From a virus: 34,220 nt of DNA. Positions 253 to 33,982 of this stretch are shown here, piece by piece. The notes beneath the pieces were generated by a model. The model was not told where the DNA came from and made no database searches. It saw nothing but the letters and a program-made list of their open reading frames with translations. Position numbers and translations under genes: made by a program. Position 1 is the first letter of the stretch. Every line of letters starts with the position of its first letter. The stretch covers positions 1-34,220 of IMG/VR virus record IMGVR_UViG_3300030090_000400; one strand, given 5' to 3'.

Positions 253-281
253 GTTATACTACGTTATGTCTTTCATGTCAA
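253..281 (-). promoter_or_regulatory. Sigma-70-type promoter, leftward
   Basis: On the minus strand TTGACA (281-276) is followed by exactly 17 bases and TATAAC (258-253), with ATG 214 about 40 bases downstream. The -35 box lies in the last codons of the DNA polymerase gene. The same TTGACA and TATAACT hexamers occur in the two rightward promoter candidates at 15,247 and 26,559, which supports function. Confidence 0.6.
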
Positions 282-2352
282 GCCAATTATTACCTATTTT
301 TGCCTCTAATAACAAAGGCACATTGAAATCTACCTCTAACCACTCACGTATTATATCCTTGATATTATCGTTTGTGCTTTGGACTACGTGTATTACCCAA
401 TCCAACTCGTCAGGGTGTACGTCAATAACGATACTATCATGCACAGTATTTACTACACAAGACTTTTTGTTGCGTAACATGTGATCAAATTGCCACAGTG
501 CAACAGGAACTATATCTGCTGTAGCAAATGACTGCACAGGATAGTTTTTTATTTGAGTGAAATGACTCACTCTACCTCTAGGACTACGTACCACATCAGG
601 AAAAGAAAACTCCCTACCTGATGGTGTGCGTATCTTACCAGTGTTTAGTGCTTCTTTGGCAAGAGACTTGTGCCATCTTGCGATGCCCATATACTTCTCA
701 TTAAAGTGTGAGTAATATGTAGCCTCTGCCTCTGACCTGCCATACCCACTAGCACCGTATAGTGGTGCAAAGGTATGTGCCTTTGCTTCCTGTCTACTCA
801 TAGGCTGACCTGCATCAGATATAACTTTAGCAGTATAAGCATGTACATCAAAACCCTCTGTCACTTCTTGTATTGCAATAGGGTCTTGTGACAGGAATGC
901 TGCAACTCTAAATTCTAGTTGAGCAAAGTCAGCTTCAATGATATGCCCACCATCAAAACGTGATACAAACACACGTTTGACAGGGAACGTACCACCTCTA
1001 GGCATGTTCTGCATATTAGGTTCTTTACCACTTAACCTACCTGTAGATGTCATGTGCTGGTTTAACTTAACATGCAACATACCGTCAGCCTTAATATTAT
1101 TCTTTATGCCACCAACAAAAGAAGAAAGATATGTGTCTAGTGCAGACAACCTCTGTACCTTTTCCAAAAACTCAAGAGCCTCTGGCATATCTTTTCTTTT
1201 TGCAGCATTAGCTAGTAACTCAAGATTGCGTTTGTTAGTGGAGAAGCCACTAGCTGTAGCCCACTTAGCATTAGGTGGTATAAACTTTAAACCAGCAACA
1301 GCGTTAGTAGGAATAACGTGATAACCGTTACCACCACACGTGGTACATCTTGTTTCTTTAGCAAACGGACTGCCATCCTTTTTTACCTTTCTTATTTTGC
1401 CTGAACCATAGCAGGTTGTACACTGCTTTAACTTAGACTTATACACAATGTCAGTCTCATCACGAATTAGATCTGTGAAACTTGCATTAGACATATAAGG
1501 TTCGTGTGCGTTCATCCACACTGTTTTATTCTTAGGCTTACGGCTGTAAATCAGAGTAGACAGTTGCTCTGGACTACTCAGATTAATGGGTACATCACCC
1601 ATAAGTTCTCTTACCTTTCCATCTAGATATACTATTATCTCCTTTCTTTCCTCTTCAAATGTGACACGTACTTCTTCTAGTGCGTCACTATCCACTTTAA
1701 ATCCACGTGTATGTATCTTAGATAACTCAACCACCATCATGTTAGTTAGGTATCTAATCTTATTAAGACCTACATCATTAGAACTATTAAACTTTACATT
1801 AAGTTCATGTGCCAGTTGCTGTGTAGCATGTAAGTCTGCACTAAGATACTCAGATAACTCTGCATGGGGTACATCACGCACTGACAAACCTTTCTTTAAG
1901 TATTCTTTCAGAGTGTCCTGCTTCTTAGTATCTAACTCATACCGTTCAGCACATGCCTCAAGGGACAGAGGTTGCTTAATACCACGCTGTGTTATATATT
2001 CCATCATCATAGTATCAAACACAGTACCACTGTACTTAAAGCCTGATTCCCATAACCACACAAGATCGTGGCTAATGTTGTGGCCTATCAGTACAGTAGC
2101 TTTATCCAAAGCATCCTGTACTATCTTGTGTCCATCATTGGTGGGTGATACTTCACTGTGATCAAAGGTAACGATTGTTTCATTACCATAATCATCAAGC
2201 ATACCCACCATTACTAATGTATTGTCAGGTTCAAAGGGGTCAAGATATAACTTACCATTACGCTTTGTTACTGTGTTCTCAACGTCTAAGGTAAGTTTCA
2301 CTGGACCACTAGCCCTCTTGTCCGACAACTGATGCTTTAACTTTTCCATCAT
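259..2352 (-). CDS. polA: DNA polymerase I (family A) with inserted DnaJ-type zinc finger
   Basis: Replicative DNA polymerase with 3'-5' proofreading, about 697 residues. Exo I (LDVENT, about residues 22-27), Exo II (GHNISHDLVW, about 90-99) and Exo III (YLSADLHAT, about 174) keep their acidic residues. Two CxxCxGxG-type knuckles (CTTCYGSG and CTTCGGNG, about 311-342) form a DnaJ-like zinc-finger insert between the exonuclease and polymerase halves. Motif A is DFAQLEFR (about 475), motif B RQEAKAHTFAPLYG (about 520) with Phe at the position equivalent to E. coli 762, and motif C is VHDS (about 637) where HDE is usual. I chose ATG 2352 because GGAG lies 7 bases ahead; in-frame ATGs at 2382 and 2358 are possible. 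It overlaps the end of the upstream oxygenase gene by 44 bases, indicating translational coupling. The insert is the feature I recall from HMO-2011-type phages. Confidence 0.95.
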   Translation of the reverse strand: MMEKLKHQLSDKRASGPVKLTLDVENTVTKRNGKLYLDPFEPDNTLVMVGMLDDYGNETIVTFDHSEVSPTNDGHKIVQDALDKATVLIGHNISHDLVWLWESGFKYSGTVFDTMMMEYITQRGIKQPLSLEACAERYELDTKKQDTLKEYLKKGLSVRDVPHAELSEYLSADLHATQQLAHELNVKFNSSNDVGLNKIRYLTNMMVVELSKIHTRGFKVDSDALEEVRVTFEEERKEIIVYLDGKVRELMGDVPINLSSPEQLSTLIYSRKPKNKTVWMNAHEPYMSNASFTDLIRDETDIVYKSKLKQCTTCYGSGKIRKVKKDGSPFAKETRCTTCGGNGYHVIPTNAVAGLKFIPPNAKWATASGFSTNKRNLELLANAAKRKDMPEALEFLEKVQRLSALDTYLSSFVGGIKNNIKADGMLHVKLNQHMTSTGRLSGKEPNMQNMPRGGTFPVKRVFVSRFDGGHIIEADFAQLEFRVAAFLSQDPIAIQEVTEGFDVHAYTAKVISDAGQPMSRQEAKAHTFAPLYGASGYGRSEAEATYYSHFNEKYMGIARWHKSLAKEALNTGKIRTPSGREFSFPDVVRSPRGRVSHFTQIKNYPVQSFATADIVPVALWQFDHMLRNKKSCVVNTVHDSIVIDVHPDELDWVIHVVQSTNDNIKDIIREWLEVDFNVPLLLEAKIGNNWLDMKDIT

Positions 2353-3031
2353 TTTCATGCTCCGTTTTCTTTGGTATTTCAAGGAAGTTAAAGTTTACAC
2401 TAAAGGATCTACGTTCACCCTTAGTCTTGAATGGATAGACACAGTGAAACAATTCACTGGGAAACAAATAGAAGTCACCCACCTGTGGCTTAACCATAAA
2501 GTTTGTAGCACTATACGTACTGGCAGTGCCATGTACAAACTGTATGTGTCCATGTGAAGGATGATGATCTTTGTAATCTTCCTGCCATTCATCGTCAATG
2601 CCGTCAGGTAGTTTGAGATAGCCAACGCATGACATCCTACATCCTGTATGTAGATGTAATGGATTGTAATCATTCTCAAACTGACGCACTAGCCATCCCG
2701 ATATAAACTGTACAGAATAATTGTTATTCTTTGTGTCTAACATATTCTGTCCATACGAGTTACGTATCGTAGCTGTATTATTATAACTACCTACAAACTG
2801 TTTGATCTCATTTAAAAATGTGTCTCGCATCTCATCAGTAAAAAACAACTCTTGTTTTACCTTACCGACTAGCTGATCAGAGTAGTCTGTCATTGATGCA
2901 AAGTCTTTGTCAAAGAATGCATTCATATCTGATACAAACTTTGCACTTAGTTTCTTATAACCCATAACAGGTCCAAAGGGGTAGAATATCTGCTCCTCTG
3001 CATCTGGTTTGGGTCTAAATATATTTACCAT
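2309..3031 (-). CDS. 2-oxoglutarate/Fe(II)-dependent oxygenase family protein
   Basis: 240 residues. The C-terminal half matches the jelly-roll 2OG-Fe(II) oxygenase family common in marine phages (2OG-FeII_Oxy_5 type): NPLHLHTGCRMSCVGYLKLP (His126, His128), then GDFYLFPSELFHCVYPF (His196) and GERRSFSVNFNF (Arg207/208, the usual 2OG carboxylate-binding region). These would supply the iron-binding histidines and the cosubstrate Arg. Such enzymes hydroxylate proteins, nucleic acids or small molecules; the substrate here is unknown. The gene has a strong AAGGAGG site, sits 11 bases after the helicase gene and overlaps the polymerase start, so it is co-expressed with replication. A DNA or replication-protein substrate is only an inference from that position. 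Confidence 0.8.
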   Translation of the reverse strand: MVNIFRPKPDAEEQIFYPFGPVMGYKKLSAKFVSDMNAFFDKDFASMTDYSDQLVGKVKQELFFTDEMRDTFLNEIKQFVGSYNNTATIRNSYGQNMLDTKNNNYSVQFISGWLVRQFENDYNPLHLHTGCRMSCVGYLKLPDGIDDEWQEDYKDHHPSHGHIQFVHGTASTYSATNFMVKPQVGDFYLFPSELFHCVYPFKTKGERRSFSVNFNFLEIPKKTEHENDGKVKASVVGQEG

Positions 3032-9752: not shown

Positions 9753-9766
9753 GTCCAATGTTGGAC
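9753..9766. repeat. Palindrome copy 1 (GTCCAA-TG-TTGGAC)
   Basis: Perfect 6-bp inverted repeat around two bases. On the minus strand it reads AAGTCCAACATTGGACCTAA and ends a few bases before the AAGGAG site of the gene starting at 9729. Possible operator or leader stem-loop. Confidence 0.75.
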
Positions 9767-11843: not shown

Positions 11844-12167
11844 TTAATCCATCCTTGATGTGTAATATGCGGCAATGCCATGCTCACCAAGACATCGAGT
11901 TACACCCATAGCAAATGCCTCTTTAAATAAAAGAGATTGGTTGTACTCCCCTACCCACCAGTGCACACCAGTACGCCACTCATCCTTCTTAAATACAGTG
12001 GTGTGTTCTGTTGCCCACTTTGCAAACTTAGTGTTTGCTTTTGGCAGTGAGATAGTTGCGAACCCACATGGTCCGTAGTCCTCATCTGCACCTTTGGCTC
12101 TGAGTTTATTAACTTCTTTGACACCTTCGGTGACAGCTAATGCAAATAGTCCAGTATAATTAATCAC
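11844..12167 (-). CDS. Conserved phage hypothetical protein
   Basis: 107 residues. The pattern DYGPCGFATISLP...FAKWA...NQSLLFKEAFAMGVTRCLGEHGIAAYYTSRMD is one I know from many phages (PCGFA...FAKW...NQS---KEA...GI-A---SRLD) with no assigned function. Complete with start at 12167 and a natural C-terminus. Confidence 0.75.
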   Translation of the reverse strand: MINYTGLFALAVTEGVKEVNKLRAKGADEDYGPCGFATISLPKANTKFAKWATEHTTVFKKDEWRTGVHWWVGEYNQSLLFKEAFAMGVTRCLGEHGIAAYYTSRMD

Positions 12168-12169
12168 GA

Positions 12170-12415
12170 TTAATCTCCTATCGCTACGTCTAGTTCAGTT
12201 TCAATCCACACTCTAGCCCCACAGGGTAGTGGATTATCAGGGTTGTACACAATGGTAGCTACTACGTCACCATCCTCGCTTAGTATGTGAATACTATCAC
12301 CATAGAGTGTGCCGTTGTCACTTTGTGCTCTTAGTACAGGCAACCTATCCTTCGGCTCCCTGTGTATATTGCTACGTATGTTGCCTTGGTTAACGTGTAG
12401 AATATTCATATTCAA
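12170..12415 (-). CDS. Conserved marine-phage hypothetical protein
   Basis: 81 residues, beta-rich. ILHVNQGNIRSN...PVLRAQ...YGDSIHIL...VVYNPDKP-like IVYNPDNPLPCGARVWIETE resembles a small protein found in many marine phages; function unknown. GGAG lies 6 bases before ATG; palindrome copy 2 lies directly ahead of that site. Confidence 0.75.
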   Translation of the reverse strand: MNMNILHVNQGNIRSNIHREPKDRLPVLRAQSDNGTLYGDSIHILSEDGDVVATIVYNPDNPLPCGARVWIETELDVAIGD

Positions 12416-12428
12416 TCTCCATTGTTAG

Positions 12429-12442
12429 GTCCAATGTTGGAC
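12429..12442. repeat. Palindrome copy 2 (GTCCAA-TG-TTGGAC)
   Basis: Perfect copy in the 26-base gap upstream of the gene starting at 12415; its first base overlaps the TAG stop of the GP88-like gene. Minus-strand flank is again CTAACAATGGAG, shared with copy 4. Confidence 0.75.
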
Positions 12443-13107
12443 TAGTGTGATGATAAGTGAACTGTTACTCTTTTACCTATGGTAGTCTGGCTGAAACATC
12501 CTGCCTTACATATAGCACAATGTCCAGAAAGTTTCTTCCATGTCTTAGGGCATTTAAATGCTTCACCTATTCCTGCATACTTGGTGTCATCACCAAAGTA
12601 CATGATGTTCCAACCATCAGCAATCAAACTGTCTTCCTCGTCCTGTGTGTTGGATGGATCAAGTGACGCATTAAGAGCTATGTTTGGAATAGGGAATAGT
12701 TCAATTTGGATTAGCTCACGCAGTAATGTGTTACGCCATGCACGTGTAGGTATCCACCACGTAGTCTCAGGCGTAGCTAGTGCTATGTCCTTGACACGGT
12801 AGATGTCGGATAGATCCTTGATGGCTTCGCCTCTAGTCATATGTCTAGCCCGTTTAGTCTGTTTCTTCTTGCGAGATAGCCAAGTCTTGACAGCTTCACC
12901 TGTGACTACCTGCCATTCCTTCTCGCATCGCTCGTCACGCTTGCCCATGTTGGGATACATCCTGTACAACTTGACGTTGTAGCAGGTTTCATCACAGAAA
13001 CTAGTCCTGTGGTCACACGATCCCTTCACACCACCAACATCATTGATGGGCCTGTCACTAGCGAACATGCCTATGTCATCACAGTAACGAAACAAATCCT
13101 TAATCAT
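12442..13107 (-). CDS. Cys-rich protein resembling the phage GP88 family
   Basis: 221 residues. Two Cys clusters flank a folded middle: GSCDHRTSFCDETCYNVK near the N-terminus (Cys about 31, 38, 42) and FKCPKTWKKLSGHCAICKAGCF near the C-terminus. The middle segment (DIYRVKDIALATPETTWWIPTRAWRN...NIALNASLDPSN) follows the pattern of GP88/DUF5131-type phage proteins (a TIM-barrel-like region, P--TFWLPTR). The Cys sets suggest a zinc or Fe-S site. Function is unknown. A TAGGAG site formed by the stop of the preceding 30-codon gene precedes ATG 13107. Confidence 0.7.
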   Translation of the reverse strand: MIKDLFRYCDDIGMFASDRPINDVGGVKGSCDHRTSFCDETCYNVKLYRMYPNMGKRDERCEKEWQVVTGEAVKTWLSRKKKQTKRARHMTRGEAIKDLSDIYRVKDIALATPETTWWIPTRAWRNTLLRELIQIELFPIPNIALNASLDPSNTQDEEDSLIADGWNIMYFGDDTKYAGIGEAFKCPKTWKKLSGHCAICKAGCFSQTTIGKRVTVHLSSH

Positions 13108-13116
13108 GGTAATCTC

Positions 13117-13209
13117 CTATAATCTATGATTAGTTGCAAACAATACCCAAAAACCTATTACTACTACAAACCAACATATACCAAGTATATGCAATACGTC
13201 AAGCTCCAT
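13117..13209 (-). CDS. Tiny single-helix membrane protein (30 aa)
   Basis: Reads MELDVLHILGICWF, then a hydrophobic VVVIGFWVLFAT and ends NHRL. A single transmembrane helix. A GGGGGA stretch lies 8-9 bases before ATG 13209, which overlaps the last codons of the upstream gene, and its stop codon TAG forms part of the next gene's GGAG site, as in translational coupling. Function unknown. Confidence 0.5.
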   Translation of the reverse strand: MELDVLHILGICWFVVVIGFWVLFATNHRL

Positions 13210-13384
13210 CGTATTCATCCCCCGATAGATCAACCAATTCATTGACGATAAGCATGTCCTTCACATCGTCAATGCTCATGTATTTAAGGCACATCCTAGC
13301 AAGATCCTCATACGAACATACGTAACCATTATCTGCATATGCCATTGCAAGATCACGATAGTTTACTTCAAATCTTTTAGTCAT
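13199..13384 (-). CDS. Hypothetical acidic protein
   Basis: 61 residues from ATG 13384, which has TGGAG 8 bases ahead; an upstream GTG in frame is less likely. Sequence MTKRFEVNYRDLAMAYADNGY with CSYEDLARMCLKYMSIDDVKDM is helical and acidic. Not recognised. Palindrome copy 3 lies just ahead of the ribosome binding site. Confidence 0.6.
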   Translation of the reverse strand: MTKRFEVNYRDLAMAYADNGYVCSYEDLARMCLKYMSIDDVKDMLIVNELVDLSGDEYDGA

Positions 13385-13406
13385 GTTGTACACTCCAAAA
13401 TGTTAG

Positions 13407-13420
13407 GTCCAAGGTTGGAC
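13407..13420. repeat. Palindrome copy 3 (GTCCAA-GG-TTGGAC)
   Basis: Perfect arms with a different two-base centre (GG on the plus strand), which argues that the arms, not the centre, are conserved. It lies upstream of the gene starting at 13384, in a 61-base gap that also contains an AGATAT/ATATCT stem. Confidence 0.75.
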
Positions 13421-13445
13421 TTAGTTAAGATATACTAAGTAATAT

Positions 13446-13640
13446 CTAAAAGGTTGGCGTTTCTTTGCCATTAGCAAACTCATTCAATGCTGTAGCCAAA
13501 GCTTTAGCTTCCTTTCGTGTCAAGTTAACAGGCTTATTCCATCCCATGCCAACATTAACACAAACACGTTTGGTTTCACCACCCCAAAACCTAGTCAAGG
13601 TAAATGGTGCGTTTCTAGGTGTATTCAATGTAGTAGCCAT
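13446..13640 (-). CDS. Hypothetical basic protein
   Basis: 64 residues from ATG 13640 (GGAG 6 bases ahead); the frame remains open upstream but that part is the overlap with the previous gene. MATTLNTPRNAPFTLTRFWGG, then NLTRKEAKALATALNEFANG, a helix rich in Ala at the C-terminal half. Not recognised. Palindrome copy 4 precedes the ribosome binding site. Confidence 0.65.
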   Translation of the reverse strand: MATTLNTPRNAPFTLTRFWGGETKRVCVNVGMGWNKPVNLTRKEAKALATALNEFANGKETPTF

Positions 13641-13641
13641 T

Positions 13642-13872
13642 TTATTCTCCATTGTTAGGTCCAATGTTGGACTTCATTTGCTTTGCAAGTTGACGCAATT
13701 CATCCCATCTATTCTTTCGCATAGTTCTGGCATAAGTGTCAGCCATCGCCTTTGACTGACCAAACCTATATACTATAGGTTCAGTCACATCAATGTCATT
13801 AGGCACTTCTTTGATCCAGCTAGAACCCAAGGGTTTATGGGTTCCAACTGGGAGGATGTGAAACTTTGCCAT
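13642..13872 (-). CDS. Hypothetical protein carrying palindrome in its last codons
   Basis: 76 residues. An N-terminal beta-like half (MAKFHILPVGTHKPLGSSW) and helical C-terminal half (SKAMADTYARTMRKNRWDELRQLAKQMK). The last codons, SNIGPNNGE, are written by palindrome copy 4 and by the GGAG site of the next gene, so the palindrome doubles as coding sequence. Overlaps the stop of the upstream gene by one base. Not recognised. Confidence 0.6.
   Translation of the reverse strand: MAKFHILPVGTHKPLGSSWIKEVPNDIDVTEPIVYRFGQSKAMADTYARTMRKNRWDELRQLAKQMKSNIGPNNGE
13659..13672. repeat. Palindrome copy 4 (GTCCAA-TG-TTGGAC)
   Basis: Perfect copy lying in the end of the 13642-13872 gene and just upstream of the GGAG site of the gene starting at 13640. 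Flanks match copies 1 and 2. Confidence 0.75.
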
Positions 13873-14480
13873 TAGGCAACTTTCCTTTCTTCCATTGCAA
13901 TCTGGATTGAAGCCACATCATGGTGATATGCTGATGGATCATCAGCAGTTGCGGAGTCAATCAGCAACTCTACAACTTGTTGTAAATCAATGTCGTACTT
14001 TTTAGCAGTAGCTAAGACATTTGCTACAATGCTTTCAGCATTAACAGTTGAAGGTTTACCTTCAGTGTTACCTTCGGTATCACCTTCGGTGCTAGGTCCA
14101 TCGTTGGACTTATCAGCTTTCTTCATTGCCAACTGCAGAGCAGTTAATGATGTGAAACCTTTCTTTGAGGCTTTGTTGAAAGCTGTAGCTTCATCGTAGT
14201 TACGATAGAACCATAGAGCTTCTGCTCTACGTCTTTTGTCGATGTTGGCTATGCCAACTTCAGCAAGTCTTTTAGACTTGATCTTACCACCCTCTGCTTC
14301 AGCAGAGAGGGTATTCAACAGTTTACCTAATCGGTAATCAAACCCATCCAAAGCTGTGCTTTGCTTGAACTTCCTTTTCAAGGAAGCTTGTTCTTTTTTG
14401 TACATTTTAGCTAAAGCTAAACCTTCACTCTCTAGAGTGTCGATTGCAGGGATCACTGTAAGTGCTTTTGAAGTAGTCAT
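13872..14480 (-). CDS. Hypothetical early protein; mRNA tiled with stem-loops
   Basis: 202 residues, second gene of the leftward operon. Residues 1-110 are basic and helical (KMYKKEQASLKRKFK, NIDKRRRAEALWFYRNYDEA). A low-complexity linker with STEGDTEGNTEGK follows, then an acidic helical C-terminus (ESIVANVLATAKKYDIDLQQVVELLIDSA). Function not recognised. The DNA is remarkable: perfect stem-loops of 5-8 bp with 2-5-base loops occur about every 30 bases through the gene, and palindrome copy 5 lies inside it. The start at 14480 has a weak GGAG 8 bases ahead in CGGAGATTTAAC. Confidence 0.65.
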   Translation of the reverse strand: MTTSKALTVIPAIDTLESEGLALAKMYKKEQASLKRKFKQSTALDGFDYRLGKLLNTLSAEAEGGKIKSKRLAEVGIANIDKRRRAEALWFYRNYDEATAFNKASKKGFTSLTALQLAMKKADKSNDGPSTEGDTEGNTEGKPSTVNAESIVANVLATAKKYDIDLQQVVELLIDSATADDPSAYHHDVASIQIAMEERKVA

Positions 14481-14629
14481 GTTAAATCTCCGATTTAAAG
14501 TTAAGTTATTTACTACCGATGATTACTCTGTATCATCGTCAGGACCATCTAGGGTGAAAGCTAATCTAATTAGCTGTTCACTGAATGGATCGTTAAGATC
14601 AAAGTCAGGACCGAAAAGCTCAAGAGCTT
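13929..14629 (-). other. Tract of densely tiled short stem-loops in coding sequence
   Basis: I count about twenty perfect inverted repeats. Plus-strand examples: TGCTGATG-GAT-CATCAGCA (13929), TACAAC-TT-GTTGTA (13971), AACTGC-AGA-GCAGTT (14131), ATCGTA-GT-TACGAT (14193), TAGAGC-TTCT-GCTCTA (14214), GTTGGC-TAT-GCCAAC (14244), CAAGTCT-TTT-AGACTTG (14264), CTCTGCT-TC-AGCAGAG (14292), CAAAGC-TGT-GCTTTG (14349), CTTCCTT-TTC-AAGGAAG (14370), TTTAGC-TAAA-GCTAAA (14406), CACTCT-CT-AGAGTG (14426), AGCTAAT-CTA-ATTAGCT (14559), AAGCTC-AA-GAGCTT (14616). They span two genes and the gap between them. A further strong one, AACCTATA-TAC-TATAGGTT, lies in the 13642-13872 gene. Confidence 0.8.
14096..14109. 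repeat. Palindrome copy 5 (variant, within a gene)
   Basis: GTCCAT-CG-TTGGAC on the plus strand: one arm base differs. It is internal to the 13872-14480 gene (encoding KSNDGP in the linker), where it cannot act as a start-site leader for that gene. Confidence 0.55.
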
Positions 14630-14660
14630 GTTGCTGAATGTTGTCAGGAAGTTTGGTCAT
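14523..14660 (-). CDS. Small acidic protein, first gene of leftward operon (45 aa)
   Basis: Reads MTKLPDNIQQQALELFGPDF, then DLNDPFSEQLIRLAFTLDGPDDDTE, stop TAA 14525-14523. Strongly acidic. It is the promoter-proximal leftward gene, just inside the big inverted repeat; the purine-rich AGAGAGAAAG ahead of ATG 14660 is the only ribosome-binding-like sequence and lies in one arm of that repeat. Unrecognised. A small acidic first-early protein could act on a host factor, but this is only inference. Confidence 0.55.
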   Translation of the reverse strand: MTKLPDNIQQQALELFGPDFDLNDPFSEQLIRLAFTLDGPDDDTE

Positions 14661-14666
14661 GTTCTT

Positions 14667-14755
14667 TCTCTCTCTTTCTAGGTTTACTAAGTGTTATTAC
14701 TTTCACTAAAGTATAAGTAATAACACGTAAGTAAACCGTAAAGAAAGAGGAGAGA
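14667..14755. repeat. Large imperfect inverted repeat upstream of leftward operon
   Basis: Stem segments, from the loop outward: GTGTTATTACTT/AAGTAATAACAC (12 bp), GGTTTACT/AGTAAACC (8 bp), CTCTTTCT/AGAAAGAG (8 bp), then about 5 more bp of CT/GA, separated by small internal loops, with a 12-base loop at 14703-14714. It ends within 10 bases of the first leftward start codon. Confidence 0.8.
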
Positions 14756-14839
14756 GTTGTGGGGTTTGAAGTGCCGACAAAAAGTGTGCCAACTATTCAC
14801 ACGCGAAAGCTACGCTTTTGTCGCGCGATAGTTAGCTAG

Positions 14840-14853
14840 GACCAACATTGGAC
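14840..14853. repeat. Palindrome copy 6 (variant, opposite orientation)
   Basis: Plus strand GACCAA-CA-TTGGAC, one base off a perfect palindrome, with the CATTGGACCT flank now on the plus strand. It sits alone in the control region between the two operons, as an operator might. Confidence 0.6.
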
Positions 14854-15246
14854 CTCATCTTAGGGGGGTGGTATTCTGTGACCATTTGTAGTCCCCCGTA
14901 GGGTATTTTGCACTGTTGCATAATTGCCACATTCGACATCACTCTCTCTTGGCAAGTGATTTGATAACACTTGCATTGTTTGGCTGGATTGCCTCGCATA
15001 TGTAGTGCATTATGACATATACATCACATAATGTAGCGCATTTGCGGATGACACATGGCATATGATGCACGGATGCCACACATCACATGACCCGGGCATG
15101 TGCCACCCCCCGTACCCACGTTACGTATATACGTAGAAACACACAGATTAGGAAAAATCACTGTTAACCAGTACGGCAAGTGACAGTAATATGTGACCTA
15201 TTAGACACACTTATATATATTTTTTTAATATTTTTGTATTTTTTAG

Positions 15247-15275
15247 TTGACAGAGGTTGACGATGTGTGTATAAC
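15247..15275 (+). promoter_or_regulatory. Sigma-70-type promoter for the rightward operon
   Basis: TTGACA (15247-15252), 17 bases, TATAAC (15270-15275), preceded by an AT-rich tract and followed by TATATACATA. The -35 match is perfect. About 110 bases separate it from the first rightward gene. The sequence around the -10 box closely resembles the promoter at 26,559. Confidence 0.75.
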
Positions 15276-15293
15276 TATATACATATAATAGAT

Positions 15294-15386
15294 CACTTAA
15301 AGTGATACACTTAAAACTCCCTTAAATAAAACTTAAAAAAACTCTAAGATATAACACTTAGATGTACACTTATAGTGAGGCACTTA
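15294..15386 (+). repeat. Cluster of CACTTA repeats (iteron-like)
   Basis: CACTTA occurs at 15294, 15308, 15355, 15367 and 15381, plus an outlier at 15208; the first is a palindrome CACTTAAAGTG. Spacings of 14, 47, 12 and 14 are not regular. The set lies between promoter and first gene next to an AT-rich tract, so it may bind a regulator or an initiator. Confidence 0.5.
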
Positions 15387-15387
15387 A

Positions 15388-15555
15388 ATGGACATTAATT
15401 CTATTTCTTTAATAGATGTACTAATACGTGCATGGCCTGTACTGTTAGGTATAATAACATTAATTATCGTGCTGGCTAAAATGCATGGCGATATTGTTGT
15501 ATTAAAAGAGAAAGTTAAAAGTTTATTTGATTTGTGGAACTCTAGATCTAATTAA
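15388..15555 (+). CDS. Small single-helix membrane protein (55 aa)
   Basis: Reads MDINSISLIDVLIRAWPVLL, a transmembrane stretch up to about residue 30, then a charged amphipathic tail VVLKEKVKSLFDLWNSRSN. GAGG lies about 7 bases before ATG 15388, inside the last CACTTA repeat area. Topology resembles small phage membrane proteins of the XhlA/holin-accessory kind, but no family assignment is secure. First gene of the rightward operon, so it is likely made early in the late phase. Confidence 0.6.
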   Translation: MDINSISLIDVLIRAWPVLLGIITLIIVLAKMHGDIVVLKEKVKSLFDLWNSRSN

Positions 15556-15567
15556 AGGAGCACATAT

Positions 15568-15714
15568 ATGAACTACAGGGATATGCTGTCACGTATAGGC
15601 AATAGAATACAGATGATAATGCTGGACAGGGACGCTATGAGATTAGTTATAGCTATATTTGTAATACTTGGATTTGTAGCACTGGCAGTATCATTTGGAG
15701 AGATTACTCTGTGA
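15568..15714 (+). CDS. Small single-helix membrane protein (48 aa)
   Basis: Reads MNYRDMLSRIGNRIQMIMLD, then RDAMRLVIAIFVILGF and VALAVSFGEITL. Basic amphipathic N-terminus and one transmembrane helix. AAGGAG lies about 8 bases before ATG 15568. The stop overlaps the GTG start of the next gene (GTGA), indicating coupling. Function unknown. Confidence 0.6.
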   Translation: MNYRDMLSRIGNRIQMIMLDRDAMRLVIAIFVILGFVALAVSFGEITL

Positions 15715-15902
15715 GACTGCGTACAGATAATATTTTAACAAAGTTTTATGAAGCACTAAAGAATAAAACATTTAGAAACTTACATATACCACACAGTGAC
15801 GTATTCTTTGTACGTGCTGCAATAGAACAGGCAACTGGTATGCGATACAGTTTAGAACACGTAGAGAAAAGCATGTTGCTTGAAGGATGGAAAGATGGGT
15901 AA
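15711..15902 (+). CDS. Conserved small phage protein, GTG start
   Basis: 63 residues; starts at GTG 15711, which overlaps the previous stop by 4 bases, with GGAG 10 bases ahead. MRLRTDNILTKFYEALKNK...LHIPHSDVFFVRAAIEQATGMRYSLEHVEKSMLLEGW follows a pattern I recall from marine phages (LHIPHSDVF-VRAAIE...YSLEHVEKA---EG). Function unknown. Confidence 0.65.
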   Translation: MRLRTDNILTKFYEALKNKTFRNLHIPHSDVFFVRAAIEQATGMRYSLEHVEKSMLLEGWKDG

Positions 15903-15927
15903 GTCATTAAGGAAGTGGAAATGTTAA

Positions 15928-16281
15928 ATGCCATCTAGTTTATTATCGAGTGAAGGAATCCTTGCAGGAGTAGCCAAGGGTATAGATAAGAAGCTACCTA
16001 CCAGAAGCAGGAAACGTAGAGAAGACCCATATGAAAGTTTACGAGATGGGTATATAGCTGAGTATCAAAAATATAAACCCGGTGCATCTTTACAGGATGC
16101 AGTAGACTATGCTGAAGGACGTATAGAAGAACTAAAAGCAAAAAAACGTGAAAAAAGACATATACAAAAGTCCAAAGGCGGTGGAGTTAAGAAACCTGCA
16201 ATGGCTTATGGGGGCATGGCAAATAAAAAGAAACATATGTATACTGCTGGTGGCTTAGTTAAAGATAAAAGAAGAGGATAA
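15928..16281 (+). CDS. Basic protein with AYGGMANKK C-terminal motif (short form)
   Basis: 117 residues. A basic N-terminal third (KKLPTRSRKRRED), a helical middle (YIAEYQKYKPGASLQDAVDYAEGRIEELKAKKREKR), and a C-terminal tail GGGVKKPAMAYGGMANKK followed by HMYTAGGLVKDK. The tail is almost identical to that of the next gene, which is otherwise unrelated. Similar tails occur in marine phage proteins as I recall, role unknown; a virion-association or packaging signal is conceivable. The start is placed at ATG 15928, one of two possible (a preceding 10-codon frame ends at its first base). Confidence 0.65.
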   Translation: MPSSLLSSEGILAGVAKGIDKKLPTRSRKRREDPYESLRDGYIAEYQKYKPGASLQDAVDYAEGRIEELKAKKREKRHIQKSKGGGVKKPAMAYGGMANKKKHMYTAGGLVKDKRRG

Positions 16282-16286
16282 AAGTA

Positions 16287-17318
16287 ATGGGAGTATTATC
16301 AAGAAGAGTAAGTAGATTAGGTAAGCCATCGGGTAAACTAGAAAAAAAGAAACGCCCTGCAAAAATAACGATACCTAAAAATTTAGCAGATAAAACGGAT
16401 GCTGAATTAGACGCACTTATAAAAAAGATTAGATCAAAACCTGCTTCTACAAAAGGCACACTAGAAGCTAGAAAAGCTATGGAAAAGTTAAAAGAAGCTA
16501 AAGCTAAAGCTAGAGCAGATAAAAAGAAGCCTAAAGAAAAAGCATCCACACAAAGAGGCATAGTGGGTGCAGGTGCTAGATCAGCACCGGGTAAGGGTGC
16601 AAAAAATCCAAAAGCAAAAGATGCAGAATCAATGAGAGCAGCTAGTGATGCTAAGATTGCAGATGAGGCTGTAGCTAAAGGACAATTAGGTAAGATTACA
16701 GCAGCTAGAGATTTACCAGCATGGAAAACTCTTCAAACTCCTGCACAAAAAGATCGTGTAAAAAAATATGTAGAACTAATGATAAAGAAAGAAAAACATG
16801 CAAACGGAGATGGACCACCTTTAACAGATGCTGAAAAGCGGTGGCTAAAATCAGATGCAAAGTATGAAGCACAAAGATTAGTAAGAGCAGGTCAGGGAAC
16901 TGGCAATAGAAGAAAAGATGCACCTAAACCGAAAACAGATAGTGCAAAAGGCAGAACACCCGGAGGTTCTAAGAAAAAGAAAACTAAAGCAGAAGCATTA
17001 GCACTAGAACCACCGCAACCAAAGCGAGCACGTGGAGATGACATGGGTGATCCAGAGACAGGTGAATTTACAGGCCGTACTACACGTGAACGACTAGATG
17101 CGTTAGCAAGAAATGCAGAAGTTCGACAAAGAATAGAAAGCGATAACAGAAGAAAAGCTGCAAGTAGAAGACGCAATCTAGGAAGATATGCAGGTGGTGC
17201 TATAACAAAACCTAAGATGGCATATGGTGGTATGGCTAATAAAAAACAGCATATGTACACAGCAGGTGGGTCAGTTAAAGACTACAGACCTATGCAGTCA
17301 TTAAAGAAGAAGTATTAA
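16287..17318 (+). CDS. Large Lys/Ala-rich basic protein with the same C-terminal motif
   Basis: 343 residues, very rich in Lys, Ala and Arg with little hydrophobic sequence, so largely disordered or helical (KAMEKLKEAKAKARADKKKP). The middle has a more ordered part around residues 125-215 (KGQLGKITAARDLPAWKTLQ, VKKYVELMIKKEKHANGDGPPL). It ends KPKMAYGGMANKKQ-HMYTAGGSVKDYRPM. Such composition suits DNA binding or an internal virion protein, but this is inferred; no family recognised. It lies 5 bases after the short-form gene. Confidence 0.65.
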   Translation: MGVLSRRVSRLGKPSGKLEKKKRPAKITIPKNLADKTDAELDALIKKIRSKPASTKGTLEARKAMEKLKEAKAKARADKKKPKEKASTQRGIVGAGARSAPGKGAKNPKAKDAESMRAASDAKIADEAVAKGQLGKITAARDLPAWKTLQTPAQKDRVKKYVELMIKKEKHANGDGPPLTDAEKRWLKSDAKYEAQRLVRAGQGTGNRRKDAPKPKTDSAKGRTPGGSKKKKTKAEALALEPPQPKRARGDDMGDPETGEFTGRTTRERLDALARNAEVRQRIESDNRRKAASRRRNLGRYAGGAITKPKMAYGGMANKKQHMYTAGGSVKDYRPMQSLKKKY

Positions 17319-31189: not shown

Positions 31190-33982
31190 ATGGGAACAGG
31201 ATATACACGTAACGATACTGCTAATAACATTGCTGATGGCAATATAATTAATGCTTCTGACCTTGATGGAGAGTTTGATGCCATTGTAAGTGCCTTTGGT
31301 ACATCAGGACATACACATGATGGTACTGCTGCTGAAGGCGGTGCTATAACTGTACTAGGACCAGCGCAACAAGTAACTGTCAGTGCAACTGCACTATATC
31401 CAAGTACTGCTAATGCAGTAGCACTAGGTACTACTTCTAATGAATTTAGTGATCTATATATGGCTGACGGTTCTGTAATCTATTTAGGTGCAGATCAGGA
31501 TGTTACATTAACTCATGTAGCAGATACTGGTATCTTATTAAATAGTACTAGGCAATTACAGTTTGGTGATAGTGGCAGTTATATACATCAGTCTGCTGAT
31601 GGTGTATTAGATTTAGTATCAGATAGTGAAATAGAAATAAATGCAACGAATGTAGATATAAACGGTGCTGTTACTATGGACAGTACACTAGCAGTAACAG
31701 GTGTAATTACTGCTGATGCTGGTATAGATATAGATAACTTCAATATTGACGGTACAACTATAGCATTATCTTCTGGTGATATGACATTAGATGGTGCAGG
31801 AGATATTATACTCGATGCAGCAGGTGAAGAAGTTATATTTAAAGATGGAAGTACTAATGTCGGTCATGTCAGTATGGATAGCGACAACCTGACAATCAAA
31901 TCACTTGTAAGCGATAAAGATATAATCTTTCAAGGTAATGACGGTGGATCAGGTATTACTGCATTAACATTGGATATGTCAGAAGCAGGAGCAGCTACAT
32001 TTAATAATAAAATTGTTGCAACTGAATTAGATATTTCTGGTAATGTAGATATTGACGGTACTCTTGAAGCAGATGCTATTACTATAGATGGTACAACACT
32101 TGCTGAAACAATAGCTGATACTGTCGGTGCTATGGTAACTAGTAATACTGAAACAGGTATTTCAGTTACATACGAGGACGGTGATAACACATTAGACTTT
32201 GCTCTTGGTGCAGCACAAACTACCATTACGTCTTTACTCGCAACGGATATAAAAATAGGTGAAGATGATGAAACTAAGATAGATTTTGAAACAGCAGATG
32301 AAATACATTTCTATGCAGCGAATGTTGAGCAGGTTTATTTAGGTGACAATATATTTGGTCCACAGTCTGACAGTGATGTAGACTTAGGTTCTAGTTCTGT
32401 ACGATGGAAAGATGCTTATGTAGACTCTATTACAGTAACTGGTGAAGTTGATGGTGCTAGTTTGGATATTAGCGGTGATGCTGATATTGACGGTACTCTT
32501 GAAGCAGACGCAATAACCGTAGATGGAACAGCTTTAGCAACTTACATTAGAGATACAGTTGGAACTAATATGCTTTCTAGTAATACAGAAAGTGGTATCA
32601 CAGTTACATATGATACATCGAATGATAATATTGACTTTGCAATTGACGCAGCACAAACAACTATAACTTCAGTTTTAGCAACTGATCTAAAGGTTGGAGA
32701 AGACGATCAAACTAAGATAGACTTTGAAGATGCTGATCAAATTAACTTTTATGCGGATAATACAAAACGTGTAACTATAGATTCTACAGGACTAACAGTT
32801 AATTCTGGTAGTATAGAAACTGCAACTATTGACTATACTGATGGTGACAATGCCATGACAATAGCAGACGGTGGTAAAGTAACCTTTGCTGCTGGTTTTG
32901 ATGTAGGTTCAGATGCTTCAGGAGATATTTTATATCATAATGGTACGTCTTATGTAAGATTAGCTAAAGGTACTGACGATCAGGTTTTAACGCTTGCTAG
33001 CGGTGTTCCTGCTTGGGCAGCAGCTAGTGCAGGTGATATTACAGGAGTTACAGCAGGAACTGGTTTAAGCGGTGGTGGTACTTCTGGTGGTGTTACCGTA
33101 AATGTAGAGGCAGCACAGACAGGCATAACTTCTCTTTTAGCTACCGACATAAAAATAGGGGAAGACGATCAAACTAAGATAGACTTTGAAGATGCTGACA
33201 CAATTAACTTTTACGCAGGAAATGAAAAACAGTTAATATTAACAGATGGTGCTTTAACACCGGGTACTAATGCAATTTTAGATTTAGGAACAGATGCTTT
33301 AGAATTTAAAGATGCGTATTTTGATGGAACAGTAGAAGCTGACGCTATAACAATAGGAGGAACTGCAATAGGTTCAATCTATAGTGCTATAGCAGGTAGT
33401 TCTAGTATTGTTACAACAGGAGCATTAGACTCTGGTTCTATAACCTCTGGCTTTGGTGCAATAGATAATGGTACATCTGGTATACGTACTAATACATTTA
33501 CAGCAGAAACATCTATACTGCCAGATGCTGTTGGTGGAGCAGATCTAGGTTCTACAAGTGCAGAATGGGGTGACATATACATTGCTGATGATAAAGCTAT
33601 TAAATTTGGTAATGATCAAGACGTTACGATGGAGTATGATGAAGATGGGACAGATTCTCTTCTTATTTCTGGTAGTGACGTAACTATTGTAGATGATAAG
33701 AAACTTTATTTTGGTACAGGACAAGATGTATATTTAGAGTATGATGAAGATGGAACTGACACACTTATTATAAAAGGTAATACTACCTTTTTAGATGGTA
33801 CATACAATTTTGATATTGCATCACACGATGGTTCTAACGGACTTAAACTAGGTGGTACTTTGGTTACAGCGAGTGCTGCTGAATTAAATTATGTAGATGG
33901 CGTAACTAGTAATATTCAAACGCAATTAAATAGTGCAGCGTCAACAGGCAAAGCCATTGCGATGGCTATGGTATTTGGTTAA
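31190..33982 (+). CDS. Tail fibre with three internal repeats
   Basis: 930 residues, Gly/Thr/Asp/Ala-rich, beta-predicted and fibrous. The N-terminal ADGNIINASDLDGEFDAIVSAF anchor type is followed by GTSGHTHDGTAAEGGA, a His-x-His-Asp motif typical of fibre metal-binding sites. Blocks of about 35 residues starting at about 342, 488 and 642 (AQT-ITS-LATD-K-GEDD-TKIDFE-AD-I-FYA) recur. It ends YVDGVTSNIQTQLNSAASTGKAIAMAMVFG, a common C-terminus of marine phage fibres. It presumably recognises the host surface. Confidence 0.85.
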   Translation: MGTGYTRNDTANNIADGNIINASDLDGEFDAIVSAFGTSGHTHDGTAAEGGAITVLGPAQQVTVSATALYPSTANAVALGTTSNEFSDLYMADGSVIYLGADQDVTLTHVADTGILLNSTRQLQFGDSGSYIHQSADGVLDLVSDSEIEINATNVDINGAVTMDSTLAVTGVITADAGIDIDNFNIDGTTIALSSGDMTLDGAGDIILDAAGEEVIFKDGSTNVGHVSMDSDNLTIKSLVSDKDIIFQGNDGGSGITALTLDMSEAGAATFNNKIVATELDISGNVDIDGTLEADAITIDGTTLAETIADTVGAMVTSNTETGISVTYEDGDNTLDFALGAAQTTITSLLATDIKIGEDDETKIDFETADEIHFYAANVEQVYLGDNIFGPQSDSDVDLGSSSVRWKDAYVDSITVTGEVDGASLDISGDADIDGTLEADAITVDGTALATYIRDTVGTNMLSSNTESGITVTYDTSNDNIDFAIDAAQTTITSVLATDLKVGEDDQTKIDFEDADQINFYADNTKRVTIDSTGLTVNSGSIETATIDYTDGDNAMTIADGGKVTFAAGFDVGSDASGDILYHNGTSYVRLAKGTDDQVLTLASGVPAWAAASAGDITGVTAGTGLSGGGTSGGVTVNVEAAQTGITSLLATDIKIGEDDQTKIDFEDADTINFYAGNEKQLILTDGALTPGTNAILDLGTDALEFKDAYFDGTVEADAITIGGTAIGSIYSAIAGSSSIVTTGALDSGSITSGFGAIDNGTSGIRTNTFTAETSILPDAVGGADLGSTSAEWGDIYIADDKAIKFGNDQDVTMEYDEDGTDSLLISGSDVTIVDDKKLYFGTGQDVYLEYDEDGTDTLIIKGNTTFLDGTYNFDIASHDGSNGLKLGGTLVTASAAELNYVDGVTSNIQTQLNSAASTGKAIAMAMVFG
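32213..33226 (+). repeat. Threefold protein repeat in the tail fibre
   Basis: DNA repeats starting at 32213, 32651 and 33113 encode the 35-residue blocks, 146 and 154 codons apart. The intervening parts also share DGTLEADAI and DGTTLAE/DGTALA segments, so each unit is about 150 residues. Copies 2 and 3 are closest (TKIDFEDAD). Confidence 0.75.

Follow-up and report, generated by a model that had tools for sequence, protein, structure and literature searches.

In RNA viruses, structured coding RNA and genome-scale ordered structure place local stems across coding sequence, where they are kept by covariation and include G-U pairs, stems of varied length, and bulges. Perfect palindromes are also found in mitochondrial genes of nematomorphs, where they have arms of up to 284 bp and number only a few per gene. 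They differ between species through gain and loss and are possibly parasitic; a neutral mutational trace was offered as their explanation (PMC6649704). Inversion of the spacer, or loop, is a known signature of switching between the arms of inverted repeats, and in yeast such inversions were observed only with arms longer than 9 bp (PMC8604942). In phage N4, promoter hairpins with 3-base loops and stems of 5–7 bp are extruded in vivo from duplex DNA (PMC4496689). At the T4 origin oriF, an early promoter and an unwinding element start replication via an R-loop whose non-template strand is left single-stranded (PMC3016281). In the literature searched, no described equivalent of the hairpin array reported here was found, the nematomorph coding palindromes being the nearest, and the feature appears to be so far undescribed in HMO-2011-type phages.

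The DNA analyzed, referred to throughout as the window, is an IMG/VR virus contig of 34,220 bases. Because its PolA shares 67% identity with the PolA of Puniceispirillum phage HMO-2011 and 64% with those of Roseobacter phages CRP-345 and CRP-1, we assign the window to the HMO-2011-type marine phages, a group described as widespread and dominant in the ocean (PMC9038755). On the minus strand, early and replication genes run leftward from about 14.7 kb, and the structural genes lie to the right on the plus strand. Elsewhere in the window, the PolA gene (259–2382, minus strand) encodes a CXXCXGXG-type (DnaJ-like zinc finger) insert of the sort typical of HMO-2011-type phages, a tail-region gene encoding 930 aa has large internal repeats (31996–33230; units of 100–124 nt, about 440–460 apart), and a 97-nt repeat, 74% identical between its copies (16176–16272 and 17192–17288), is common to the ends of two adjoining genes.

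A hairpin array at the start of the early operon

The array lies where the early operon begins. Its core (13600–14720, minus strand) contains 20 perfect hairpins with stems of at least 6 bp and loops of 2–4 bases within about 1.1 kb (13.6–14.7 kb), and 26 are found in 13,600–14,660 when the minimum stem is set at 5 bp. The earlier note on this DNA had described more than twenty perfect short stem-loops running through the early genes; this observation is correct and conservative, and the three hairpins that it quoted are all present. The spacing of about 30 bases that it gave is approached only when 5-bp stems are counted, the 20 hairpins of the core occurring about once per 50 bases. With stems of at least 6 bp, 13,600–14,660 holds 8 hairpins with a 2-base loop and 10 with a 3-base loop, for each of which 0.35 were expected from the rest of the window. 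Hairpins with 2–3-base loops are thus about 25-fold enriched relative to the rest of the window, and loops of 0, 1, and 5 or more bases showed no enrichment there.

Three minus-strand genes lie within the array, and the hairpins are given here as they read on that strand. Upstream of the first gene, TACTTT-AGTG-AAAGTA (14698–14713) forms the tip of a long leader hairpin. The first gene of the early operon, which encodes 45 aa (14523–14660) and was included in the codon-shuffle analysis, holds AAGCTC-TT-GAGCTT (14616–14629) and AGCTAAT-TAG-ATTAGCT (14559–14575), and TTAAATC-GGA-GATTTAA (14482–14498) lies in the gap before the next gene. That gene, encoding a conserved all-alpha protein of 202 aa (13872–14480), is the densest part of the array. 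Its hairpins are CACTCT-AG-AGAGTG (14426–14439), TTTAGCT-TT-AGCTAAA (14406–14421), CTTCCTT-GAA-AAGGAAG (14370–14386), CAAAGC-ACA-GCTTTG (14349–14363), CTCTGCT-GA-AGCAGAG (14292–14307), CAAGTCT-AAA-AGACTTG (14264–14280), GTTGGC-ATA-GCCAAC (14244–14258), TAGAGC-AGAA-GCTCTA (14214–14229), ATCGTA-AC-TACGAT (14193–14206), AACTGC-TCT-GCAGTT (14131–14145), TGAAGGT-AA-ACCTTCA (14049–14064), AATGCT-GAA-AGCATT (14028–14042), TACAAC-AA-GTTGTA (13971–13984), and TGCTGATG-ATC-CATCAGCA (13929–13947). The third gene, encoding 76 aa (13642–13872) and likewise part of the codon-shuffle analysis, holds AACCTATA-GTA-TATAGGTT (13763–13781) and GTCCAA-CA-TTGGAC (13659–13672).

The last of these is also a copy of a dispersed palindrome, GTCCAAYRTTGGAC, which is found in the window at 9753–9766, 12429–12442, 13407–13420, and 13659–13672, with some copies having a GG loop. 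It often lies at gene junctions or encodes KSN(I/D/V)GP within proteins, and looks like a repeated element entering reading frames. Five copies are present in CRP-1, five in CRP-345, and it also occurs in the leaders of many relatives; CRP-2, CRP-207, CRP-603, CRP-3, CRP-738, and HTVC033P have none.

Chance or base composition as the source of the array was ruled out by shuffling. The densest 880-base stretch holds 18 hairpins (stem of at least 6 bp, loop 2–8) versus 1.8 ± 1.3 in dinucleotide shuffles, and the gene for the 202-aa protein holds 14 versus 1.53 expected under codon shuffling, with none of 500 shuffles reaching 14. The genes for PolA, TerL, portal, and coat proteins fell within or near their codon-shuffled range. 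Outside the core, a milder excess extends to 11.9–13.2 kb and 14.5–15.8 kb; it runs on into further early genes (z of 3–5 at 11.4–13.2 kb), for example at 13199–13393 and 11844–12415.

A repetitive protein was also rejected as the source: the 202-aa protein is not repetitive, and the arms are rewritten between relatives. As had been proposed, the stems are accommodated by codon choice and permissive residues. Within genes, loops tend to coincide with whole codons, and the commonest pairing register is 1:3/2:2; this register preference and a compromise between protein and pairing are shared with the nematomorph palindromes. Relatives of the 202-aa protein were found in IMG/VR and, at 27–47% identity, in HMO-2011, CRP-1, and CRP-345. 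Searches of Pfam and PHROG gave no family match and PDB no fold match, the viral structure library returning S4S2E1 only, so that family and fold searches gave no clue from which a function of the array could be deduced.

The array is present at the homologous place in the isolates HMO-2011, CRP-1, and CRP-345 and in dozens of distinct IMG/VR relatives, over a range of 27–92% protein identity. Its occurrence in three cultured isolates and many independent metagenomes rules out an assembly or amplification artefact. Codon shuffling gave a similar picture in the isolates, with 11 hairpins observed versus 1.6 expected in CRP-1 gp01, 9 versus 0.7 in HMO-2011 gp74, and 4 versus 0.7 in CRP-345 gp01. 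No comparable dense array was found in the HMO-2011-type phages CRP-2, CRP-207, CRP-603, CRP-3, CRP-738, and HTVC033P, and the replication common to the group therefore does not need it.

A density profile along the early region was compiled from 50 non-redundant loci. Upstream, the late genes carry about 0.5 hairpins per kb. In the leader, between −500 and −250, the density jumps to 12.8 per kb; it remains at 11–13 per kb as far as +750 and declines thereafter through 6 and 3 to about 2.5 per kb by +3 kb. The onset is thus abrupt and one-sided, some 500 bp ahead of the gene within the noncoding leader; the array fades across 1–3 kb of early genes and is absent from the adjoining late genes. 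The feature had been described as one of coding sequence; because the array of relatives begins in the noncoding leader, it is not solely a coding feature. Coding and noncoding parts are equally dense.

Pairing is under purifying selection

The hairpins are minimal. Relative to late genes, those with 6- or 7-bp stems and 3-base loops are enriched 25–26-fold, and those with 2-base loops 11-fold (6-bp stems) and 38-fold (7-bp stems). Enrichment is only 1.6-fold for 5-bp stems with 4-base loops, and there is none for 6-bp stems with 1-base loops. Among hairpins with 3-base loops, the counts fall from 289 to 76, 10, and 1 as the stem lengthens from 6 to 9 bp, which indicates that six pairs are the target and that longer stems are no more frequent than chance. 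Spacing between hairpins shows no periodicity or helical phasing, and the half-sites share no sequence; protein binding sites with helical phasing were accordingly ruled out.

At low divergence the arms are strongly conserved. When nearest pairs of relatives at less than 4% divergence were compared, each used once, only 6 of 1008 arm pairs had changed versus about 34 expected from the flanks, and there were no double changes. Loops changed at 0.024 per base (12 of 505 bases) and flanks at 0.017. With increasing distance, double changes from one Watson-Crick pair to another accumulate slowly, at 0.014, 0.025, and 0.054 per pair at 8, 11.5, and 19% divergence. When one arm had changed, its partner had also changed in a fraction of 0.53 versus 0.215 in late-gene control hairpins, and 75% of both-changed pairs were Watson-Crick versus 32% in the control. 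The pair-keeping covariation that marks structured RNA is therefore a property of the array. Whole hairpins are rewritten between relatives and are still perfect. The place of CAAAGC-ACA-GCTTTG is taken by ATCCATC-AA-GATGGAT in one relative and that of TTTAGCT-TT-AGCTAAA by TTCAGCT-TT-AGCTGAA in another, and CTTCTTT-GAA-AAAGAGG and CCTCT-GAAA-AGAGG are found at the place of CTTCCTT-GAA-AAGGAAG.

Breakage by position shows where the constraint ends. Most of pairs 1–6 counted from the loop were broken in about 3–8% of comparisons, and the outermost of the six, a position biased by the way hairpins were picked, in up to 12% for 2- and 3-base loops; the seventh pair was broken in 11–22% and bases outside in 17%. 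About six Watson-Crick pairs per hairpin are thus constrained, and the seventh pair and the loop are free. It is the pairing of these minimal hairpins with loops of 2–3 bases, and not their sequence, that is under purifying selection. Since pairing is preserved and sequence is not, some process needs this stretch to fold, as DNA or as RNA. The codon-shuffled controls and the homologous phages, proposed in the earlier note as the places where its observation could fail, both upheld it: stem density is far above the controls, and stems are kept in homologues with covarying arms.

The earlier note had also raised the idea of hairpin-templated mutation, and template switching does act on these hairpins. 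Where a loop had changed completely between identical arms, the new loop was the reverse complement of the old one in 5 of 6 two-base, 4 of 11 three-base, and 2 of 2 four-base cases. Examples between orthologues are AGTCCG-ACAG versus -CTGT and AAAGCC-AGA versus -TCT; CTGTCT-AA versus -TT was seen between contigs that are 99% identical, and the AA loop at 13971–13984 is TT in a relative. Such loop inversions, and multi-base changes inside the repeats, are shared with template switching in yeast, unlike which they occur here with arms of 6–8 bp; template switching also leaves the constraint unexplained. A neutral trace, in which template switching or arm-to-arm conversion perfects and preserves chance hairpins that have no function, would account for these inversions between identical arms and for the small number of imperfect hairpins. 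It would also fit the transition share of double changes (0.49), which is nearer to that of single-step copying, or single mutations (0.47), than to that of two independent hits (0.60). Against it, arm copying predicts about 17 double changes in 1008 pairs at 1.7% divergence and none was seen, single changes are suppressed five- to sixfold, stems stop at 6–7 pairs with the seventh unconstrained, one-mismatch hairpins are not depleted, and density does not differ between coding and noncoding parts. Spacer inversion is therefore found without the unselected arm-to-arm copying expected of template-switch products. Given the conservation of arms at low divergence and a constraint that ends at pair six, a model of pure conversion was dropped. 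With purifying selection acting on the arms and about six pairs preserved, the array does not represent a neutral trace, an explanation that is now largely refuted and that we regard as improbable. The nematomorph palindromes, which are likewise perfect inverted repeats in functional genes with few imperfect ones, differ in the same respects: the array has arms of about 6 bp, tiled by the dozen from the noncoding leader onward, with conserved placement and under purifying selection, and long perfect arms, dynamic gain and loss, and unconserved placement are not features of it.

The leader and the early/late boundary

The noncoding leader upstream of the first early gene (14757–15141, minus strand) is where the array starts in relatives with an HMO-2011-type leader. 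This part of the array is a conserved noncoding element of about 300–400 nt, with covarying stems and fixed linkers (CAACTGTTATGNNATCAGTTGCC; for example positions 2340–2900 of locus L036 and homologues); the linker pattern is GAGTTT..CGCAC..CTTC[stem-loop]TGCA..GAAACG..GAGGAT. At least 120 viral-contig stretches contain the leader motif and no GTDB genome does; the GTDB genomes therefore offered no link to a host. No known RNA family could be assigned to array or leader, as Rfam gave no match near the gathering score in seven loci, including 12,251–16,129 of the window.

Between leader and first gene, folding prediction identifies a long imperfect hairpin (14665–14756, minus strand) whose 3' arm holds the ribosome-binding region (GAAAGAGAGAGAAAG). 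The 140-nt stretch around it has a predicted energy of −43.6 kcal/mol, and at this place relatives keep strong folding on both strands (z about −4.5). Lying over the ribosome-binding region of the first early gene, this hairpin could possibly serve as a translational switch.

At the divergent early/late boundary lies a conserved A+T-rich element, GGTTAACANTNANTTTNCCTRATCTGTG (15142–15168, minus strand), which is present in 145 loci and is a candidate early promoter or origin element. GC and AT skews switch sign around the leader and this element, a change that also coincides with divergent transcription. As a separate observation, locus L036 has a perfect sigma-70 consensus (TTGACA-17-TATAAT) at 2222–2250 on the minus strand, pointing away from the early genes.

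The folded strand: DNA or RNA

The explanation that we favor, to which we give a probability of roughly 0.4, is that the hairpins would form on the non-template strand where it is displaced, close to an origin or early promoter; a displaced strand and an origin in the leader region are the parts that we infer. An R-loop or the first replication bubble would displace the non-template strand immediately downstream of the A+T-rich element that marks the early/late boundary, and the mini-hairpins would fold this strand into a chain of beads. Such a chain would prevent re-annealing, coating, and cutting of the strand and so keep the region open to the phage replisome. A stem of six A+T-rich pairs with a 2–3-base loop would be the minimum that folds stably, which is the reason proposed for selection stopping at six. 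A polymerase crossing a folded hairpin may sometimes switch template, inverting the loop and rewriting both arms in one step. Tentatively, the array would then be a second, structural code laid over protein-coding DNA: a sequence-independent, length-gauged chain of six-bp DNA mini-hairpins on one strand that keeps the displaced strand folded where replication or transcription begins. The R-loop origins oriF and oriG of T4, where a promoter and an A+T-rich element lead to replication from a displaced non-template strand, are a proposed analogy only; no hairpin array is described there.

The main competitor is early-mRNA structure, with co-transcriptional folding of the leader and first early messages that is shape- rather than sequence-specific, which may provide RNase protection, prevent RNA-polymerase backtracking or Rho access, or be recognized by a hairpin-binding protein. 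The earlier note had suggested such a structured message. It is a possible explanation that we rank second, and the single direction in which the array runs along the early transcription unit speaks for it. So do the conserved unpaired motifs between covarying stems of the leader and the long hairpin over the ribosome-binding region, which looks like an RNA regulator and counts against the DNA reading.

The loops are asymmetric between strands. GAA loops outnumber TTC loops 16 to 2 in the noncoding leader and 27 to 0 in two coding zones, and GGA loops are likewise strand-biased (17 versus 0). The loop-closing pairs are pyrimidine-purine, with C-G at 62 versus G-C at 8, and T-A at 44 versus A-T at 15, in the leader. 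The cleanest test of mismatches, single defects in otherwise intact orthologous hairpins, gave 43 GU versus 20 AC (p = 0.005), as selection on RNA also predicts. A G-T pair is the milder mismatch in DNA too. We infer from the loop asymmetry and this ratio that the hairpins act on the sense strand, a placement that also fits an early mRNA.

Other observations are not predicted by RNA alone. Pairs are almost exclusively Watson-Crick. In static counts, perfect hairpins are 13-fold enriched (5.2 versus 0.40 per kb), and hairpins with a single GU (1.15 versus 0.82 per kb) show no excess over those with a single AC (1.07 versus 0.72 per kb). Among 75 distinct sequences of the leader stem-loop, 2 GU and 1 AC were found in 375 cells, with no GU in the covarying inner helix. 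Folding z-scores of sense and antisense strands are equal in every zone. Loops of 2 bases can be closed by DNA but not by RNA, and yet the pair next to them is under the same constraint as in hairpins with 3-base loops. RNA-virus structures differ in just these respects, the array consisting almost only of perfect short stems, with both strands equally foldable. These points, together with the loop inversions and double changes that are not rich in transitions (0.49 versus 0.60 expected), count for DNA and against the message, and the one-sided gradient, the skew change at the leader, and the conserved A+T-rich element upstream count for the displaced-strand model. The selected form is thus more likely single-stranded DNA than RNA. 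In combination, the evidence from pairing, folding, loops, and GU defects points to the sense strand, with non-template single-stranded DNA somewhat ahead of mRNA.

A function in duplex DNA was also considered, in which the palindromes extrude as cruciforms, buffer negative supercoiling near the early promoter, or bind a symmetry-recognizing dimer. Perfect pairing, strand-symmetric folding, and GNA-like loops like those of the extruding N4 hairpins are what it would predict. There is no shared half-site or helical spacing, though, arms of 6 bp extrude poorly save with special loops and those of the array are varied, and a symmetric duplex role leaves the GAA versus TTC asymmetry unexplained; we therefore consider it unlikely. 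Promoters of the N4 virion RNA polymerase resemble the array in their short hairpins, GNA loops, and position in the early region of a short-tailed phage. N4, however, has few, sequence-specific promoters and a polymerase of 3,500 residues, and the stems and loops of the array have no common sequence. GAA loops were closed by T-A in 37 cases, C-G in 15, and G-C in 10, and thus mostly not by the C-G pair required by the N4 hairpin, which counts against DNA in this form; conserved loop and stem bases are not found either. A giant virion RNA polymerase was sought in six large proteins of CRP-1, CRP-345, and HMO-2011 with no Pfam or PHROG match, and N4-type promoters were rejected.

Whichever applies, few examples show selection on local folding of nucleic acid across protein-coding DNA as clearly as this array. 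If the DNA reading is true, it would be a sequence design that manages single-stranded DNA at an origin or early promoter; if the RNA reading is true, it would be a minimal, repeated stem code that protects messages. Both are directly testable in cultured HMO-2011, CRP-1, and CRP-345.
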